Of a DNA stretch of 64,000 bases, positions 220 to 12,237 are shown one piece after another. Source of the stretch: Ferrovibrio sp. MS7. Lineage in GTDB: Bacteria; Pseudomonadota; Alphaproteobacteria; Ferrovibrionales; Ferrovibrionaceae. The notes under the pieces are model-generated. The model saw only the letters and a list, made by a program, of their open reading frames with translations, was not told the DNA's origin and searched no databases. Numbering within the stretch: position 1 is the first letter of the stretch; each line of letters begins with the position of its first letter. Location: assembly GCF_038404985.1 (NCBI RefSeq), contig NZ_JBBKBA010000004.1:62001-126000 (forward strand), written 5' to 3'. The position numbers were made by a program, and so were the translations under genes.

Positions 220-535
220 TCTGGTCCGATTGAATTTCAGACTACGATGGCTTGGCCTCCGCCATGCTGTCGAAGGCGAGCGGCGTCGGCAGTCTCACCC
301 CCTGCCGCGCCGCGAGCGCTTTTTCCGCCGGGCATCGGCGGTGCCGCCCGAATGATCCTCACCCAGAGCGCATAATTCCTGGGCAGAGTGGCGCAGATTC
401 CACCGCCGCCCCCGAGACTTAGGCCAAATTTCCCGGTTCAGCGCAGATCATAGCTTGGCACGCTTTGTGCTACCCGCTATCCTACACATACCTGTATAGA
501 CCAATTTTGATGGCTGGCAGATAGGTGGGGGACCG
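220..535. other. intergenic region with promoter signals only
   Basis: No convincing gene is seen in these 316 bases. The short frames here lack ribosome binding sites and family resemblance. The right half becomes more AT-rich and carries a sigma-54-like promoter (456-471). The sequence AGGTGGGGG at 520-529 supplies the ribosome binding site for the gene at 536. Confidence 0.6.
456..471 (+). promoter_or_regulatory. sigma-54 (RpoN) -24/-12 promoter
   Basis: TGGCACGCTTTGTGCT matches the RpoN consensus TGGCACG-N4-TTGCW at every defined position but one. GG and GC have the required spacing. Transcription would begin near 482, leaving a leader of about 54 bases before the ATG at 536. RpoN promoters need an enhancer-binding activator; no clear NtrC site was found by eye. 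Confidence 0.65.
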
Positions 536-1396
536 ATGAGTGGCGTGAGCGCATTGCCGACCAATGACAAAAGCCCCGGGGGTGAACAATCTCCTGTGAG
601 CGAGCAGGATATCGCCAACTTCCAGAAGGATGGCGTCATCGTCGTACGCGGTGCCTTCCGTGACTGGATCGCGCCGCTGCAGGCCGGCACCGCCGCATTG
701 ATGGCCAATCCGAGCCCGCTGGAGCGCACCGTGAAGCCGGAAGACGGTTCGGCGCCGTTCTTCCAGGATCTCTGCAACTGGCAGCGCATTCCGCAATTCC
801 AGGATTTCGTGCTGCATTCCGGCGCCGCCAAGCTGGCCGCCGCTCTGATGCGTTCGAACACCGCGCGCTTCTTCCACGATCATGTGCTGGTGAAACAGCC
901 GGGCGGCAGCACGGTGACGCCCTGGCACCAGGACCAGCCATATTACTGCGTCGAAGGCAAGCAGAGCGTCAGCTTCTGGATCCCGCTCGACCCGGTGCCG
1001 CGCGATGTGGTGATGGAATGCGTGCGCGGCTCGCATCTGTGGGGCAAGGATTTCCGCCCGATGCGCTTCAACGGCACGCGGCTCTATGAGAATGACAATT
1101 TCGAGGTAATGCCGGATATCGAGGCGATGCGCGGCGAACTCGACATCGCCGGCTGGGACATGCAGCCCGGCGATGCCATCGCTTTCAATTTCCGCACCGT
1201 GCATGGCGCACCGGCCAACAACTCGCCCCGCATGCGCCGCGTCTTCTCCGCCCGCTGGGTCGGCGACGATGCCGTCTATGCCGAGCGTGCCGGCAAGGGC
1301 TCGCCGCCCTTCACCGGCCTCACCATGGCCGATGGCGATGCCTTCGACGCACCGATCTTTCCGGTCGTCTACGACTCCACTGCTTCAGTACGTTAA
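536..1396 (+). CDS. phytanoyl-CoA dioxygenase (PhyH) family protein
   Basis: An Fe(II)/2-oxoglutarate-dependent oxygenase of the PhyH fold, 286 residues, cytoplasmic. The iron facial triad is visible: H131 and D133 in WHQDQ and H223 in TVHGAP. Arginines at 232-235 are suited to binding 2-oxoglutarate. Family members hydroxylate substrates from phytanoyl-CoA to ectoine and 2-aminoethylphosphonate, so the substrate cannot be read from the sequence. A strong AGGTGGGGG ribosome binding site precedes the ATG, and a sigma-54-like promoter lies upstream. An ABC importer follows beyond a terminator, so oxidation of an imported nitrogen- or sulfur-containing compound is a reasonable inference. Confidence 0.88.
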   Translation: MSGVSALPTNDKSPGGEQSPVSEQDIANFQKDGVIVVRGAFRDWIAPLQAGTAALMANPSPLERTVKPEDGSAPFFQDLCNWQRIPQFQDFVLHSGAAKLAAALMRSNTARFFHDHVLVKQPGGSTVTPWHQDQPYYCVEGKQSVSFWIPLDPVPRDVVMECVRGSHLWGKDFRPMRFNGTRLYENDNFEVMPDIEAMRGELDIAGWDMQPGDAIAFNFRTVHGAPANNSPRMRRVFSARWVGDDAVYAERAGKGSPPFTGLTMADGDAFDAPIFPVVYDSTASVR

Positions 1397-1405
1397 GTCC
1401 GCCCT

Positions 1406-1434
1406 GCCCCGGTCAATCGACCGGGGCGTTTTTG
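1406..1434 (+). terminator. Rho-independent terminator after the PhyH gene
   Basis: The nine-base stem GCCCCGGTC/GACCGGGGC (1406-1414, 1419-1427) with an AATC loop is followed by GTTTTTG. It lies 9 bases after the PhyH stop codon and before the transporter genes, so the latter probably have their own promoter or rely on read-through. Confidence 0.85.
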
Positions 1435-1461
1435 TTTCCACCTACCCACACGGAGACCTCG

Positions 1462-2427
1462 ATGTTGCGATCCACCAAGACCCTCGGCGCCCTGATCGGC
1501 ACCGCTTTTGCCGTCACCGCCTCGCTGGCGCAGGCCCAGGAAACCAAGGTCGGGATCGGCATTTCCGGCTGGACCGGCTTTGCCCCGATCACGCTGGCCA
1601 AGGAAGCCGAAATCTACAAGAAGAACGGCCTCGACGTGACGATCCGCAAGATCCCGCAGAAGGACCGCCACCTGGCGCTGGCCTCTGGCGACATCCAGTG
1701 CGCCGCCACCACGGTGGAAACCTGGATCGTGTGGAACACCAACGGCATCGCCACCACCCAGTTGTTCAAGATGGATCAGGGCATGGGTTCGGACGGCATC
1801 GTCGCCCGCAACTCGATCACCAAGGTCTCCGACCTGAAGGGCAAGACCGTGGCCGCTTCGGCGCCTGGCACCAACCCGCATTTCACGCTGGCCTGGATTC
1901 TGAAGAAGAACGGCCTGAAGCTCAGCGACGTGAACCTGATCACCCTGGAGCCGGCACCGGCCGCCAATGCCTTCGTTGCCGGCACCGGCAACCTGGATGC
2001 CGCCGTGACCTATGAGCCGTATCTCAGCCTGGTGCGCGACAAGCCGGAGAGCGGCAAGCTGATCGCCGACAGCCTGCAGTATCCGATGGTTTTCGACAGC
2101 TTCGGCTGCACCCCGAAGTTCATCAAGGAGAACCCGAAGGCCGTGAAGGCGCTGGTGGAGAGCTATTTCCAGGCGCTGGACATGATTGCCAAGGAAAAGA
2201 CCAAGGCCTTCACCATCATGGGCGCCGACGTGAAGCAGACCGCCGAACAGTTCGAGAAGTCGCAGTCCATGATCAAGTGGGCTGACCGCGAGGCGAACAA
2301 GAAGTTCTTCAACGGCGAAATCCAGGCCTTCAACAAGGAAGCTGCGGCACTGCTGCTGGAGATCGGCGTGATCAAGACCATGCCGACCAACATGGACAGC
2401 CTGTTCGACACCAGCTTCCTGAACTAA
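1462..2427 (+). CDS. ABC transporter substrate-binding protein (taurine/nitrate/NMT1-like)
   Basis: A periplasmic binding protein of 321 residues in the SsuA/TauA/NMT1 group. A Sec signal peptide of about 24 residues ends in AQAQ, followed by two alpha/beta lobes. The ATG at 1462 is preferred: GGAG lies ten bases upstream and the signal peptide begins there. An earlier in-frame ATG at 1432 lies in the tail of the terminator. The permease and ATPase follow directly. The group binds sulfonates, nitrate, thiamine precursors and aromatic acids, so the ligand is open. Confidence 0.88.
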   Translation: MLRSTKTLGALIGTAFAVTASLAQAQETKVGIGISGWTGFAPITLAKEAEIYKKNGLDVTIRKIPQKDRHLALASGDIQCAATTVETWIVWNTNGIATTQLFKMDQGMGSDGIVARNSITKVSDLKGKTVAASAPGTNPHFTLAWILKKNGLKLSDVNLITLEPAPAANAFVAGTGNLDAAVTYEPYLSLVRDKPESGKLIADSLQYPMVFDSFGCTPKFIKENPKAVKALVESYFQALDMIAKEKTKAFTIMGADVKQTAEQFEKSQSMIKWADREANKKFFNGEIQAFNKEAAALLLEIGVIKTMPTNMDSLFDTSFLN

Positions 2428-2488
2428 GCACCATAATGCCCACAGCCCGAGTGAATCCGATGATGCAACGCATGCCTGGCAGGTCTGT

Positions 2489-3265
2489 ATGAAGCTGCTC
2501 GTTCCGGTGTCGCGCGAAAGCCGCACCATTCTTGGCATCGCCTTCTTCGTTGGTTTTGTCGGGCTGTGGGCCCTGCTTACCTGGTCCGGCTCGGTACCGA
2601 AGCATTTCCTTGCTTCGCCCTGGCAGACCTTGAAGACCGGCATCTTCCTCTTCACCGACCAGAAATTCGCCTACGATGTCGGCATGACGATCTGGCGCGT
2701 GGTCGGCGGCTTCCTCATCGCCGCTGCCATCGCCGTGCCGCTCGGCATCAGCATGGGCGCCTACAAGCCGGTGGAGGCTTTCTTCGAGCCTTTCGTCTCC
2801 TTCGCCCGCTATCTGCCCGCTTCCGCCTTCATCCCGCTGCTGATCCTGTGGGTCGGCATCGGCGAAGCGCAGAAGCTCACCGTGATCTTCCTCGGCTGTT
2901 TCTTCCAGCTCACGCTGATGATCACCATGATCGTCGCCGCCACGCGCCGCGATCTGGTGGAAGCCGCCTACACGCTCGGCTGCAAGGATACCGGCGTGAT
3001 CCGCCGCGTGCTGCTGCCGGGTGCGGCGCCGGAAATCGCCGAGGCCCTGCGCCAGGTGCTGGGCCTGGGCTGGACCTACATCATCGTTGCCGAGCTGATC
3101 GGCGCCTCGTCGGGCATCGGCCATATGATCACCGACAGCCAGGCGCTGATGGCGACCGACAACATCATCGCCGGCATCGTGGTGATCGGCCTGGTTGGCC
3201 TGGTCACAGACTTGGTGTTCAAGAAAGTCAACCAGCACCTGTTTTCGTGGAGTCTGTTGCGGTGA
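2489..3265 (+). CDS. ABC transporter permease (SsuC/TauC type)
   Basis: An inner-membrane permease of 258 residues with about six hydrophobic helices. A conserved EAA loop starts near residue 158 (EAAYTLGCKDTG...LLPGAAP) and docks the ATPase. It lies 61 bases after the binding-protein gene, and its stop codon overlaps the start of the ATPase gene (GTGA), so the pair is translationally coupled. The ribosome binding site is weak (AGGT at 2481), also consistent with coupling or low expression. It would transport the ligand of the upstream binding protein. Confidence 0.9.
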   Translation: MKLLVPVSRESRTILGIAFFVGFVGLWALLTWSGSVPKHFLASPWQTLKTGIFLFTDQKFAYDVGMTIWRVVGGFLIAAAIAVPLGISMGAYKPVEAFFEPFVSFARYLPASAFIPLLILWVGIGEAQKLTVIFLGCFFQLTLMITMIVAATRRDLVEAAYTLGCKDTGVIRRVLLPGAAPEIAEALRQVLGLGWTYIIVAELIGASSGIGHMITDSQALMATDNIIAGIVVIGLVGLVTDLVFKKVNQHLFSWSLLR

Positions 3266-4044
3266 GCCGGCTGTCGATCAAGAATGTCACCAAGGTGTTT
3301 CCCGGCGTGAAGCGCAACGCGCCGCCGACCCAGGCATTGCTGCCGGTGGATCTCGAAGTCGGCGACAACGACTTCATCACCGTGCTCGGTCCCTCGGGCT
3401 GCGGCAAGTCCACCCTGCTGCGCCTCGTCGCCGGCCTGGAAACGCCGACAACCGGCCAGATCCTGCTGGATGGCGAGCCGATCAGCGGCCCCGGCGCCGA
3501 CCGTGGCGTGGTGTTCCAGAGCTACACGCTGTTTCCCTGGCTCACCGTGCAGCAGAATATCTGCTTCGGCCTGCGCGAAAAGGGCATGCCGGTGAAGCAG
3601 CAGAACGAGATCGCCGGGCGCTTCATCGCCCAGGTCGGCCTGCGCGGCTTCGAGAGCCATTATCCAAAGCAGCTTTCCGGCGGCATGCAGCAGCGCGTCG
3701 CCATTGCCCGTGCGCTGGCCAACGACCCGAAGATCCTGCTGCTCGACGAGCCCTTCGGCGCGCTGGACAACCAGACCCGCGTGCTGATGCAGGAATTGCT
3801 GCTTGGCATCTGGGAGCAGGCGCAGAAAACGGTGATGTTCGTAACCCACGACATCGATGAGTCGATCTTCATGGCCAGCCGCGTGGTGGTGTTCTCCGCC
3901 CGCCCCGGCCGGATCAAGAGTGAAGCCATCGTCGACCTGCCGCATCCGCGCCATTACACGGTGAAGACGACGCCGGAATTCATGCAGCTCAAGGCCCGGC
4001 TCACGGAGGAAATCCGCGCCGAAGCCCTGGCCGCGGCGCACTGA
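3262..4044 (+). CDS. ABC transporter ATP-binding protein (SsuB/TauB type)
   Basis: A nucleotide-binding subunit of 260 residues. The Walker A motif GPSGCGKST is at 43-51, followed by signature LSGGMQQR, Walker B LLLDEPFGALD and the switch histidine in THD. Translation most likely starts at the GTG at 3262, which overlaps the permease stop. GGAG nine bases upstream supports it, and the protein then begins at the usual family position. The frame remains open far upstream, but that part is out-of-frame permease sequence. Confidence 0.92.
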   Translation: MSRLSIKNVTKVFPGVKRNAPPTQALLPVDLEVGDNDFITVLGPSGCGKSTLLRLVAGLETPTTGQILLDGEPISGPGADRGVVFQSYTLFPWLTVQQNICFGLREKGMPVKQQNEIAGRFIAQVGLRGFESHYPKQLSGGMQQRVAIARALANDPKILLLDEPFGALDNQTRVLMQELLLGIWEQAQKTVMFVTHDIDESIFMASRVVVFSARPGRIKSEAIVDLPHPRHYTVKTTPEFMQLKARLTEEIRAEALAAAH

Positions 4045-4055
4045 GCCGCACCGCC

Positions 4056-4901
4056 ATGCCCGCCAAGGCCAGCTCAACCCGCTCCCGCCCAGGCACACGA
4101 CCCGGCACACCGCGCAAGCCGGTGGCGAAGTCGGCGGCGAAGGCCACGCCGCTGCGGGTGGCGGCAAGCAATGGTGCGCCTGCCCTGGCGCTCTATGAGC
4201 AGATCAAGGAGCATATCCGGCGCAGGATTCAGGATGGATCATGGCCGGCCGGGCATCGCTTGCCCTCGGAGCAGGATCTGGTGGTGCAGTTCGGCGCCGC
4301 GCGCATGACCGTGAACCGGGCTTTGCGCGAGCTGGCGGAACAGGGCCGCGTGGTGCGCGTGGTCGGCGTCGGCAGCTTCGTTGCCGAGGACAAGCCGCAA
4401 TCGACGCTGTTGCAGATCGCCAATATCGCCGCCGAGATCCGCCAGCGCGGCCATGACTACCGCTGCGAGGTACAGTTGGCCGAGCGCGTGGCGGCACCGC
4501 CCGATATCGCCGCCTGGCTCGACCTGCGCGCCGGCGCTTCGGTGTTCCATGTCGTCTGCCTGCATCTCGAAAACGGCATCCCGGTGCAGCTTGAGGACCG
4601 CTATGTCAGCCCGGCCATGGCGCCGGATTTCCTGCGGCAGGATTTCGCCACCACACCGCCCGGCGAATACCTGGTGCGCCATGTGCCCTATGATCAGATC
4701 GAGCATGTGGTGGATGCGGTGCTGCCGAGCCATGAGCAGGCCGAGCGGCTGGCAATGCCGGCCGACGAGCCCTGCCTGCTGCTGACGCGGCGCACCTGGA
4801 ATCGCAACACCCCCGTCACCATGGTGCGCTGCCTGCATCCCTCCTCGCGCTATCGCCTCGGCTGCCGCTTCCCGGTCAACGGCAATCAGAGTTTCGGCTG
4901 A
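4056..4901 (+). CDS. GntR/HutC-family transcriptional regulator
   Basis: A winged-helix GntR regulator of 281 residues. A basic Ala/Pro/Lys-rich tail of about 40 residues is followed by the DNA-binding domain (about 43-110, with LPSEQDLVVQFGAARMTVNRAL). A UTRA ligand-binding domain runs to the end and contains the TTPGEYL-like stretch typical of HutC relatives. It starts 11 bases after the ATPase gene, so it is probably in the transporter operon and senses the imported compound or a product. Histidine-utilisation genes are not adjacent, so the name HutC is only a family label. Confidence 0.88.
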   Translation: MPAKASSTRSRPGTRPGTPRKPVAKSAAKATPLRVAASNGAPALALYEQIKEHIRRRIQDGSWPAGHRLPSEQDLVVQFGAARMTVNRALRELAEQGRVVRVVGVGSFVAEDKPQSTLLQIANIAAEIRQRGHDYRCEVQLAERVAAPPDIAAWLDLRAGASVFHVVCLHLENGIPVQLEDRYVSPAMAPDFLRQDFATTPPGEYLVRHVPYDQIEHVVDAVLPSHEQAERLAMPADEPCLLLTRRTWNRNTPVTMVRCLHPSSRYRLGCRFPVNGNQSFG

Positions 4902-4906
4902 CCCGC

Positions 4907-5323
4907 ATGCTTATCCGTCCCTATCAGGCAGCCGACCGTGCGGCGGTGATCGCGCTATGGCAGGCATGCGGCCTCACCCGGCCCTGGAACGATCCCGGCC
5001 AGGATATCGACTTCTGCATTGGCTCGAAGGAAGCCATCCTGCTGATCGCCGAACAGGATGGCGCGGTGATCGGCAGCGCCATGGTGGGGCATGATGGCCA
5101 CCGCGGCTGGGTCTACTATCTTGCCGCCGCACCGGCGCAGCAGCGCGGCGGCCTCGGCCGCCGGCTGATGCAGGCCGCCGAGGACTGGGCGCGGGCACGC
5201 GGCGTGCCGAAGCTGATGCTGATGGTGCGACCGGAGAATGAGCGCGTGCGCGCCTTCTACGAGCGCCTGGGCTATATCGAGGAGCCGCGCATCATCTTCT
5301 CGCGGCGCCTCGACGGGAAATAG
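4907..5323 (+). CDS. YpeA-like GNAT acetyltransferase
   Basis: A single-domain N-acetyltransferase of 138 residues. It shows the YpeA hallmarks: ALW..CGL.RPWNDP near the N terminus, GHDGHRGWVYYL in the core, and an acetyl-CoA pyrophosphate loop (QQRGGLGRRLM). The C terminus reads RAFYERLGY. The acceptor substrate is unknown for the family. It begins 5 bases after the GntR stop, so it is likely co-transcribed as the last gene of the transporter operon. The next gene is on the opposite strand and its stop lies only 8 bases away. Confidence 0.88.
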   Translation: MLIRPYQAADRAAVIALWQACGLTRPWNDPGQDIDFCIGSKEAILLIAEQDGAVIGSAMVGHDGHRGWVYYLAAAPAQQRGGLGRRLMQAAEDWARARGVPKLMLMVRPENERVRAFYERLGYIEEPRIIFSRRLDGK

Positions 5324-5937: not shown

Positions 5938-6011
5938 CGTCATGCGCGGACTTGATCCGCGCATCTCATGCCAATCTGCGAAAGATGCCCGGGTCAAGCC
6001 CGGGCATGACG
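5938..6011. repeat. REP-like imperfect inverted repeat
   Basis: Two 28-base arms (5938-5965 and 5984-6011) are near-perfect reverse complements, beginning CGTCATGC and ending GCATGACG. Each arm is also internally palindromic around a TTGA/TCAA core. A further CGTCATGCCCC fragment lies at 5918-5928. The element fills the gap downstream of the FAH hydrolase gene. Such palindromic units are common between genes in alphaproteobacteria and may stabilise or end transcripts. Confidence 0.7.
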
Positions 6012-9267: not shown

Positions 9268-10431
9268 ATGACCCTGACGCGTTTCCTGCTCGGCGCCCTG
9301 CCGGGCACAGCGGCTTTGCTAATCGGCATCGGCATGGCCCGTTTCGGCTACACGCCGCTGATTCCGGCGCTGATCCAGGATGGCTGGCTGCAGGCCTCGG
9401 AAGCCGTCTATCTCGGCGCCACCAATCTCACCGGCTACCTGTTCGGCAGCATGCTGTCCTACCGCCTCGCCACCCGCTTCGGCGCCGGGCCGATGGTGCG
9501 GCTGGCGCTGGTGCTGACCACGCTCAGCTTCATTGTCTGCGCCCTGCCGCTGGGCTTCTGGTGGTTCGTGCCCTGGCGCTTCATGGCCGGCTTCACCGGT
9601 GCCATGCTGATGATCATAGCCTTGCCGATCATTCTGGTGCGCATGCCGCTGGACCGCCGGGCGCGGGCCGCTGGTGTGGTGTTCACCGGCGTCGGTATCG
9701 GCGTCGCCGCCAGTGGCAGCCTGGTGCCGAGCCTCGCCGCCTTCAGCGTCAGCGCCGTGTGGCTCGGCATGGCGCTGGTCTCAGGCAGCCTCACGCTGAT
9801 CACCTGGAAAAGCTGGGTCCAGGCCGCAGCACCTGTCGCGGCGACAAGCGAAGAGCCTTCAGGCAAGCTGCTGTCGCGGCCCATCGTGCTGCTGCTGCTG
9901 GCTTATGGCTTCGATTCTTTCGGCTTCGTACCCCATACCGTGTTCTGGGTCGATTTCGTGGCGCGTGGCCTTGGCCGTGGCCTCGCGGAAGGCGGCTTCT
10001 ACTGGGTCTGCTTCGGTGTCGGTGCGCTCTGCGGGCCGCTCGCCGCCGGCTTCACCGCCGAGAAACTCGGCTTCCACCGCGCGCTGATCATCGCCTTTCT
10101 GCTGAAATCCTTCGGCATCTTCCTGCCGCTGCTCAGCACTTCGGTGCCGGCGCTGATGCTCTCACCCTTCCTCGCCGGTGCTTTCGCGCCCGGCATCTCG
10201 GCGATCCTCTCGGGCCGTGTCGCCGAACTGGTCGGCCTCACGCGCCACCGCCAGGTCTGGGGCTGGATGACTGTGGCGGTCGGTGCGGCGCAGGCCTGCG
10301 GCGGCTACAGCCTGTCGTATCTGTTCACCCAGACCCATTCCTACATGCTGCAATTCCTCATCGGCGGCACGGCCCTCGCCATCGGCGCCGTGCTGGTGGC
10401 TTTGAGCGGCAGCAAGCCGAGGACGACCTGA
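9268..10431 (+). CDS. YbfB/YjiJ-family MFS transporter
   Basis: An inner-membrane transporter of 387 residues with about twelve hydrophobic segments. The start matches the YbfB/YjiJ group (IGIGMARFGYTPLIPALI), and helix 2-3 reads ATNLTGYLFGSMLSYRLA. The substrate of the group is unknown. The ATG at 9268 lacks a clear ribosome binding site but fits the family N terminus. Its stop is 1 base before the DUF1491 start, so the two are co-transcribed. Confidence 0.87.
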   Translation: MTLTRFLLGALPGTAALLIGIGMARFGYTPLIPALIQDGWLQASEAVYLGATNLTGYLFGSMLSYRLATRFGAGPMVRLALVLTTLSFIVCALPLGFWWFVPWRFMAGFTGAMLMIIALPIILVRMPLDRRARAAGVVFTGVGIGVAASGSLVPSLAAFSVSAVWLGMALVSGSLTLITWKSWVQAAAPVAATSEEPSGKLLSRPIVLLLLAYGFDSFGFVPHTVFWVDFVARGLGRGLAEGGFYWVCFGVGALCGPLAAGFTAEKLGFHRALIIAFLLKSFGIFLPLLSTSVPALMLSPFLAGAFAPGISAILSGRVAELVGLTRHRQVWGWMTVAVGAAQACGGYSLSYLFTQTHSYMLQFLIGGTALAIGAVLVALSGSKPRTT

Positions 10432-10432
10432 C

Positions 10433-10762
10433 ATGGACCCACGGCTGAAAGCGGAATTGCTGGTGCAGGCGATCCTGCGGCTCTACGACCACGAGATGAT
10501 CCCGGCCTATCTGCGGCGGCGCGGCGATGCCGATGCCGGCGCCGTTGCCGTGAAAATCTCTTTAAGCCGCGACAGCGCCGTGCTGTTCACACAGGCCCGC
10601 GACGGTGAAGGCCGCGCGGCCTGGTTCAAGACCGGGCCACAGGATGATGCCGCCGTGGAAGCCATGCTGGCCAAGGCGATCAGCCGCGATCCGGACCTGT
10701 GGATCGTGGAAGCCGAGGATGGCAAGGGCCGCTTCCCGCTGGATGGCCCCATCATCGGCTGA
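10433..10762 (+). CDS. DUF1491 family protein
   Basis: A small soluble protein of 109 residues matching the alphaproteobacterial DUF1491 family. Cues are the internal RRGDADAGAVAVKI stretch and the C-terminal DPDLWIVEAEDGKGRFPLD. Function is unknown. It begins one base after the MFS stop codon, with GAGGACG in the MFS 3' end as ribosome binding site. Co-occurrence with this transporter may be incidental. Confidence 0.82.
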   Translation: MDPRLKAELLVQAILRLYDHEMIPAYLRRRGDADAGAVAVKISLSRDSAVLFTQARDGEGRAAWFKTGPQDDAAVEAMLAKAISRDPDLWIVEAEDGKGRFPLDGPIIG

Positions 10763-10796
10763 TAGACTCAGCCATAATCAATTCAGGGAGGCCATC

Positions 10797-10943
10797 ATGG
10801 TCGGACCGCTTATTCTCATCGGCCTTGGCGCCCTGCTGCTGGCGAACAACTTCGACATGCTGTCGCTCGCCTTCCTGAATCAATGGTGGCCGGCCATCCT
10901 GATCATCCTCGGCGTCGGCATGCTGTTTCAGCGACGCCGCTAG
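10797..10943 (+). CDS. LiaI/LiaF-like two-helix mini membrane protein (48 aa)
   Basis: A 48-residue protein of two hydrophobic helices (about 4-16 and 30-44) joined by an NNFDMLSL...NQWWPAIL loop and ending in Arg-Arg-Arg. This is the layout of the LiaI-LiaF transmembrane region/DUF5668 group. The ATG at 10797 has GGGAGG at optimal spacing; the frame is open further upstream, but that part overlaps DUF1491 in another frame. Possible role in envelope stress, by family only. Confidence 0.72.
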   Translation: MVGPLILIGLGALLLANNFDMLSLAFLNQWWPAILIILGVGMLFQRRR

Positions 10944-10950
10944 TCCGTCA

Positions 10951-12237
10951 TCAAGCAGGCTGCACCACCGCCTTGGCGCGTTGCTGGCGCACCAGCAGCA
11001 CGATTCCAGCCGCCACGATGCAGGCGGCACCCGCCAGGAAGAAAGCCGGCGTATAGCTCTGCGTCGTGGTGCGCACCAGGCCGGCGCCATAGGCTGCCGT
11101 GGCGGCACCAAGCTGATGCGCGGCGAATACCCAGCCGAACACCATGCCGACCTTCTGCGGCCCGAATATCTGCCCGGTGAGCTTCACCGTCGGCGGCACC
11201 GTGGCGATCCAGTCCAGGCCATAGAACAGCGCAAACAGCGACAGGCCATAGAGCGTGAAATCGGAATACGGCAGCCACATCAGCGAGAGGCCGCGCAGGC
11301 CGTAATACCAGAACAGCAGCTTGCGGTTATCGTAGCGGTCGGAGAGCCAGCCCGAGAGAATGGTGCCAACGACATCGAAGGCACCCATCATCGCCAGCAC
11401 CGACGCCGCCGGCACGGCGCTGAGGCCGAAATCGCTGCACAGTGCGATGAAATGCGTCTGGATCAGGCCGTTGGTGGAAAGGCCGCAGATGAAGAAGCTG
11501 CCCGCGAGAATCCAGAATACCGGCTTCTGCGCTGCTTCCCACAGCACCACGAACGGCGTCGCCAGACTCGGCAGCGGTGCGGGCGCCGCAGGCGCCGCCG
11601 GCGCGGTTTCGCCATAGGGTGCCAAGCCGAGATCGCTCGGCCGGTTGCGCATCAGCAAAGCCGCCAGCACCAGCGCGGCGCCACAGGCAATCACCACCGG
11701 GAAAACCGCCGAGCGCCAGCCCCATTGCTCGATCATCCAGGCGGCAATCGGCAGGAAGGCCAATTGTCCGGTGGCGGAACTGGCGGTGAGCAGGCCAACC
11801 ACCAGGCCGCGCCGCGTGGTAAACCAGCGATTGGCGACCACGGCGCCAAGCACCAAAGCGGTCATGCCGGTGCCCAAGCCCAGCACCAGGCCCCAGAGCA
11901 GGAAAAGCTGCCACAGGCTTTGCACCTGCGTCGCCATCGCCATGCCGGCACCGACCAGCAGCACCGCCACCGTGATCACCTGGCGCAGGCCGAAACGCTC
12001 CATCAGCAACGCCGCCATCGGCCCCATCAGGCCAAACAGCGCGAAGCGGAATGCCAGGCTGGAAGCAATCTCATCGGTGGTCCAGCCGAATTCCTTGCCC
12101 AAAGGCAACAGCATGGCGCCAGGTAGGCCGAGTGCCGCCGACATCACCAGCATGGTGAGGAAAGTGACGGCGGCGATCACCCAGGCATAGTGGATGCCAC
12201 GGCGTTGCAGCCACGGCGCGAGAGCGGATGCCAGCAT
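10951..12237 (-). CDS. MFS transporter (OFA/MCT-like)
   Basis: A twelve-helix major facilitator protein of 428 residues. It begins GIHYAWVIAAVTFLTMLVMSA, and the linker between halves is rich in Ala and Pro (APAAPAAPAPLPSLA, about 235-250). The pattern resembles oxalate/formate or monocarboxylate-type MFS proteins. The ATG at 12237 lies 2 bases after the thiolase stop, with GGAG inside the thiolase end as ribosome binding site. It is therefore the last gene of an aldo-keto reductase - thiolase - MFS operon and may import the acid degraded by them. Confidence 0.85.
   Translation of the reverse strand: MLASALAPWLQRRGIHYAWVIAAVTFLTMLVMSAALGLPGAMLLPLGKEFGWTTDEIASSLAFRFALFGLMGPMAALLMERFGLRQVITVAVLLVGAGMAMATQVQSLWQLFLLWGLVLGLGTGMTALVLGAVVANRWFTTRRGLVVGLLTASSATGQLAFLPIAAWMIEQWGWRSAVFPVVIACGAALVLAALLMRNRPSDLGLAPYGETAPAAPAAPAPLPSLATPFVVLWEAAQKPVFWILAGSFFICGLSTNGLIQTHFIALCSDFGLSAVPAASVLAMMGAFDVVGTILSGWLSDRYDNRKLLFWYYGLRGLSLMWLPYSDFTLYGLSLFALFYGLDWIATVPPTVKLTGQIFGPQKVGMVFGWVFAAHQLGAATAAYGAGLVRTTTQSYTPAFFLAGAACIVAAGIVLLVRQQRAKAVVQPA

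Follow-up and report, generated by a model that had tools for sequence, protein, structure and literature searches.

In Pseudomonas, HutC binds the motif TGTA-N2-TACA, and at hutU the region protected by HutC overlaps the sigma-54 site (available text of PMC12977541); the same gene is activated by NtrC and CbrB, according to the available text of PMC8871633. The HutC regulons of Proteobacteria include a predicted ABC importer of histidine, HisXYZ (available text of PMC5343134).

Here we describe a related arrangement in a 64,000-nucleotide stretch of DNA from Ferrovibrio sp. MS7, which was analysed as a whole and is called the window below. As shown in Table 1, a -24/-12 element precedes genes for a PhyH-family dioxygenase, the three components of an ABC importer and a HutC-family repressor. 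We consider it probable that this element is the sigma-54 promoter of an RpoN-activated, HutC-repressed PhyH-importer-HutC operon (536-4901), which would feed a histidine-related nitrogen compound into catabolism.

Table 1. Features predicted at the PhyH operon, in coordinates of the window
Feature	Coordinates	Strand	Basis
Sigma-70-like candidate promoter, TTGGCA-N17-TATCCT	455-483	+	Hexamers 9/12, 17-base spacing; shares bases with the element at 456-471
Predicted sigma-54 (-24/-12) promoter element, TGGCACGCTTTGTGCT	456-471	+	Consensus match, exact spacing, conservation
Predicted HutC/GntR-type operator, TGTATAGACC	493-502	+	Conserved GTMTAKAC, shared with hutH
PhyH-family Fe(II)/2-oxoglutarate dioxygenase, 286 aa	536-1396	+	PF05721 97.4 bits, cut-off 22
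Terminator-like hairpin followed by a T run, between PhyH and the binding-protein gene	1405-1428	+	
ABC importer substrate-binding protein, NMT1/SsuA/TauA-like	1462-2427	+	PF13379, PF09084; TIGR01728
ABC importer permease	2489-3265	+	PF00528
ABC importer ATPase	3262-4044	+	PF00005
HutC-family GntR/UTRA repressor	4056-4901	+	TIGR02018 312.6 bits, cut-off 220

The -24/-12 element and its conservation

The element carries GG at 457-458 and GC at 469-470, ten bases apart (GG-N10-GC), and agrees with 11 of the 12 defined positions of TGGCACG-N4-TTGCW, which we take to be the consensus, the sole mismatch being the first T of TTGC (G in the window). It is separated by 64 bases from the start of the PhyH-family gene. 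The original prediction had claimed an RpoN-consensus 16-mer, one position off and with exact spacing, and downstream of it a PhyH-family gene; both were found as stated, the gene product passing PF05721. As a single site the element is not significant: TGGCACNNNNNTTGCW with up to two mismatches gave 37 matches in the window (four of them with one mismatch) for 41.4 expected from shuffles.

The genome encodes RpoN, NtrC, NtrX and FlbD, each of which passes a curated NCBIfam cut-off. Across this genome TGGCAYNNNNNTTGCW was found at 18 sites and its reverse at 3, and the looser class that includes the site of the window at 58 against 16, the reversed pattern being an imperfect control because its dinucleotides change. 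Seven of the 18 TGGCAYNNNNNTTGCW sites are followed, 5-57 nt further on, by an open frame of 252-481 aa, and some of these frames look, by eye, like flagellar and periplasmic binding proteins.

A scan of contigs confirmed at least 578 PhyH relatives, the best 80 of which (L024-L103) were used for comparison. The 16 with 73-85% identity to the window PhyH (L024-L039) were taken as the orthologue set; by record title, most are Alphaproteobacteria, among them Reyranella, and two carry the label Variovorax. The order of the importer genes after PhyH is conserved as far as the contigs extend. A HutC gene with 65-74% identity is present in 11 of these 16 loci; among the five where it is missing, the contigs of L028, L032, L033 and L039 end early, and L031 is a real exception. 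At E <= 1e-15, L024-L103 gave no match to the GNAT gene at 4907 or to the DUF1993 gene next to it, so that the conserved unit ends at 4901. Further downstream, a stretch at 5938-6000 was noticed by eye for its resemblance to dispersed repeats of Alphaproteobacteria. Within the genus of the window, an orthologue at E <= 1e-60 was present in a same-species genome and in none of eight other genomes, therefore the operon has a patchy distribution there and is probably transferred horizontally.

The region searched for the promoter reached from 200 nt before the projected PhyH start to 60 nt after it. The pattern TGGCAY-N6-TGCW was found upstream of PhyH in 15 of 17 operons (the window and the 16 orthologues), the Markov background being 0.0011 per 200 nt, and each other spacing tried, TGGCAY-Nk-TGCW with k from 0 to 13, occurred in at most one of the 17. 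The two exceptions are L024, which has TGGCATCCTTTTTGCG in place of the element, deviating at the last base, and L030, where no sigma-54 element was detected upstream of PhyH. None of the 64 more distant PhyH loci has the pattern. The sequence flanking the element is poorly conserved, with a mean upstream information of 0.27 bits per column; column information is circular at the defined positions, because the sites were picked by pattern, and the spacing control is not. Clustering of the orthologue upstreams by ungapped identity produced 12 groups, a procedure that splits some near relatives, and about 8 independent upstream backgrounds were counted by eye. In a separate class-wide search, 385 genomes yielded 29 new PhyH loci (L184-L212), all of which were scored, and the element was present in two of them, L184 and L185, the only ones with at least 75% identity. 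L184 is a further, new orthologue with the element; L185, with a 200-base stretch identical to that of L038, does not count as independent.

Conservation upstream of orthologues had been proposed as one of the checks on a sigma-54 promoter 5' of PhyH. With the element kept in 15 of 17 operons, and at one spacing only, the promoter was not refuted, and these alignments support that the element at 456-471 is a real, conserved sigma-54 promoter element, as judged from sequence. A chance match, for which the background-level statistics of the single site and the 58 looser-class sites of the genome could be invoked, was rejected despite those statistics, as its recurrence in 15 of 17 operons at a single spacing makes it hardly credible.

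The HutC-family repressor gene, a predicted operator and an overlapping sigma-70 candidate

A second layer of predicted control, formed by a repressor gene at the end of the operon and an operator just 3' of the sigma-54 element, was no part of the original prediction. The product of 4056-4901 passes the HutC model TIGR02018 (Table 1), scores 238.3 with the narrower model PRK14999, below its cut-off of 424, and matches PDB 2pkh, 'Histidine utilization repressor', with an E value of 2.1e-38. Compared with TGTA-N2-TACA, the left half of the predicted operator is exact and two bases differ in the right half. Its core, GTMTAKAC, was found upstream of PhyH in 15 of the 17 operons for 0.1 expected, in 8 of the 64 more distant PhyH loci for 0.3 expected, and in 5 of the 29 class-wide loci. 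L031, with a full flank, has neither a HutC gene nor an intact operator, and on the short contig of L039 no operator was detected. Counted from the initial T of the element, the core starts at a distance of 24-26 nt in 13 orthologues and of 38 nt in the window, where the operator thus lies 12-14 nt further downstream.

The sequence TGTATAGACMR occurs three times in the 4.58-Mb genome: at the PhyH operon, about 43 nt before hutH in the orientation opposite to this gene, and at C1:1779244, near what looks to us like a priA-like region. The genome has a second HutC gene (G000:C1:1220633-1221310, L128), located next to hutU and preceded by a perfect TGTATATACA, and this second protein could be the one acting at the PhyH operator. 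The two paralogues are 45% identical, and their operator flavours differ (TGTATATACA versus TGTATAGACM).

The overlap of the element with a sigma-70-like promoter (Table 1), likewise absent from the original prediction, raises the question of which of the two is constrained. At the -10 hexamer of the sigma-70 candidate, the other 15 aligned elements match at two or fewer of the six positions, the window being the only one of the 16 with more than two. A conserved sigma-70 promoter was rejected on this ground, as orthologues do not keep the -10 hexamer; since the N6 element is kept in 15 of 17 operons and the -10 is not, the constrained feature is, by this comparison, the -24/-12 element. A different situation could hold in the window species, with transcription starting from TTGGCA-N17-TATCCT under HutC repression and the sigma-54 element left as a relic without a role. 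This would agree with hexamers that match at 9 of 12 positions with a 17-base spacing, with the singular -10 and the extra spacing before the operator in the window, and with the hutH of the genome, where, by eye, TTGACG-N17-TAGGCT appears to be the promoter in use, immediately followed by the operator. We hold it unlikely, as the sigma-54 element of the window has its TGGCA and TGC cores intact, and it is these positions, not the -10, that the orthologues retain. No sigma-54 element of this type was found within the 20 kb read around hutH.

The dioxygenase, the importer and their gene neighbourhood

The predicted structure of PhyH is confident (pLDDT 90.1). Its closest solved relative by sequence is MysH (E 9.9e-31), which is also the closest fold (Z 30.7, 2.0 Å over 235 residues, 32% identity), followed by SnoK/SnoN and, further down, by the proline hydroxylase H11. 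Residues H131, D133, H223 and R234, which by motif we expect to be the ligands of iron and 2-oxoglutarate, do not vary among 47 sequences (the window protein and 46 relatives, a subset of those found, from which L042, L048 and L051 were excluded because their stretches run through stops), in such a way that the active-site set H-x-D...H, R appears intact in the alignment.

The original prediction of an adjoining SsuA/TauA-type importer stands as a likeness at the family level, the importer being closest to SsuA/TauA/SaoP-type models, and does not extend to the curated sulfonate and taurine models, as the binding protein scored 108.8 with TIGR01728 (cut-off 163.5) and 61.1 with TIGR01729 (cut-off 304.25). 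Among five solved relatives, the nearest to it are taurine- and sulfonate-binding proteins. In the PhyH-importer gaps of the 16 orthologues (9-101 nt) no obvious hairpin was seen by eye, unlike in the window (1405-1428), so here the expression of PhyH may exceed that of the importer.

Genes near PhyH were assigned at E <= 1e-20 and at least 35% identity (40% for HutC) in the best 80 of at least 578 PhyH loci. HutU, HutH or HutI was found near PhyH in 20 of these 80 loci, HutC in 19, and a hut enzyme or HutC in 31, while the remaining 49 had neither within the flanks available; as the flank available ranges from about 0.1 to 6 kb, these counts, and that of HisC below, are lower bounds. In the orthologous loci, hut enzymes are close in 9 of 16. 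PhyH lies directly 3' of hutU in, e.g., L080, L086 and L087, and in our reading TRAP-type and branched-chain-type importers replace the window-type importer in L044 and L087. A HisC-like (histidinol-phosphate transaminase-type) aminotransferase is near PhyH in 14 of the same best 80 (L048, L052, L057, L063, L066, L070 and others), which suggests imidazole-pyruvate chemistry. In L029, a locus with hutU, hutH and hutI, the gene after HutC (10188-11258) looks TauD-like and has no NCBIfam match at E <= 1e-15.

Pyrimidine degradation, like that of histidine, is a nitrogen-source pathway, and six orthologues (L032, L034-L038) carry a divergent rutA. The product in L034 was tested as RutA (TIGR03612 558.6 bits, cut-off 498.3), and the other five are 96-97% identical to it. 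In all six, an antisense consensus -24/-12 element, TGGCATGNCGCTTGCT, is located about 29 nt before the rutA start. In these six loci, the sigma-54 elements for rutA and for the PhyH operon stand back to back, at a distance of 38 bp in L034.

These data also bear on whether the conserved TGGCAY-N6-TGCW box might be the binding site of another regulator and no promoter at all. No NtrC-like site above random was detected in the 16 upstream regions scanned, and such a reading could draw on this lack of an activator site. The agreement with the -24/-12 consensus and its spacing, the closeness to the start codon, the distance of 24-26 nt to the operator fixed in 13 orthologues and the second such element at the divergent rutA make it very improbable.

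As for the substrate, the operon could take up and oxidise a sulfonate (taurine-like) or another non-imidazole compound, its HutC being a paralogue with a changed effector. The type of importer and the solved relatives of its binding protein point in this direction, as do five plasmid-borne regions with distant PhyH relatives (of 44 matching records), whose neighbours are diverse and uninformative, with other transporters and regulators and no hut genes in their annotation tables. Against it, the scores for the sulfonate and taurine models stay below their cut-offs and that for HutC exceeds its own, 9 of the 16 orthologous loci have hut enzymes close by, and the operator is common to the PhyH operon and hutH; on balance we find it fairly unlikely, and a histidine-related compound is the substrate that we favour.

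That PhyH replaces a missing early Hut step was rejected, as hutH, hutU, hutI and hutF are all in the genome, and a side entry into the Hut pathway is therefore more likely than a replacement. The reaction can be guessed at as a hydroxylation or an oxidative N-dealkylation of a modified histidine.

Proposed regulation and comparison with known systems

We infer RpoN dependence, NtrC as activator, the acting HutC, the inducer, the substrate and the reaction as follows. The RpoN polymerase would sit at 456-471 as a closed complex, to be opened under nitrogen shortage by an enhancer-binding ATPase, for which NtrC is the most likely candidate. Until a urocanate-like inducer arrives, transcription would be blocked by a HutC-family repressor, probably that of the operon itself, bound to the operator downstream, in the region of the start site. 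The importer would then take up a histidine-related (imidazole) nitrogen compound, which PhyH would oxidise, and the compound or its product would enter the Hut pathway. Points that weigh against this scheme are the overlapping sigma-70 candidate and the shifted operator in the window, the 16 upstream regions in which no NtrC-like site rose above random, the missing sigma-54 element in the 20 kb around hutH, the orthologues that depart from the pattern (L024, L030, L031 and L039), the 49 of 80 PhyH loci with neither hut enzyme nor HutC in the flanks available, and the second HutC of the genome.

The original prediction had derived nitrogen-source scavenging from RpoN control next to the importer. 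RpoN control alone is no proof of such a role, because some perfect -24/-12 sites of the genome precede flagellar-looking genes; the HutC repressor and operator, the hut linkage and, in six orthologues, the divergent rutA with a sigma-54 element of its own do support it, and the proposed link to nitrogen is probably correct, on better grounds than those first given. A broader proposal, which we find possible though short of probable, is that the PhyH family is an unrecognised oxidative entry into Hut catabolism, turning modified histidine or imidazole compounds into Hut substrates with interchangeable importers and under HutC control and, in one clade, under an RpoN nitrogen control that has been transferred between classes of Proteobacteria along with its promoter. 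If true, this would give a concrete and testable function, nitrogen nutrition by way of histidine-related compounds, to a family whose annotation usually stops at 'phytanoyl-CoA dioxygenase family protein'. Among open-licence PMC articles, judged by titles and abstract openings, no paper was found linking phytanoyl-CoA dioxygenase to HutC, urocanate hydratase, RpoN or histidine utilization, and the literature on catabolism of methylhistidine, hercynine, ergothioneine and imidazole propionate, judged by listings, gave no lead.

Among enzymes with solved structures MysH, the nearest by sequence and fold, is like the window PhyH an Fe/2-oxoglutarate dioxygenase, and differs from it in its role, the synthesis of mycosporine-like amino acids; we know of no hut or importer link for MysH. 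Regarding the regulon, the HutC regulons with HisXYZ have in common with this operon the predicted extension of HutC control to an ABC importer, and neither PhyH nor dioxygenase occurs in the main text of that survey (PMC5343134, available text). The closest counterpart of the promoter is that of hutU in Pseudomonas, where a sigma-54 site and a HutC operator likewise share one promoter in a histidine-linked, nitrogen-controlled operon (PMC12977541 and PMC8871633, available text). In contrast to hutU, the window promoter would drive PhyH and an SsuA-like importer instead of hutU/hutH, with an operator that is an imperfect TGTA-N2-TACA and with no NtrC site found. If true, the combined sigma-54 and HutC control of Pseudomonas hutU recurs on different genes in other bacteria.
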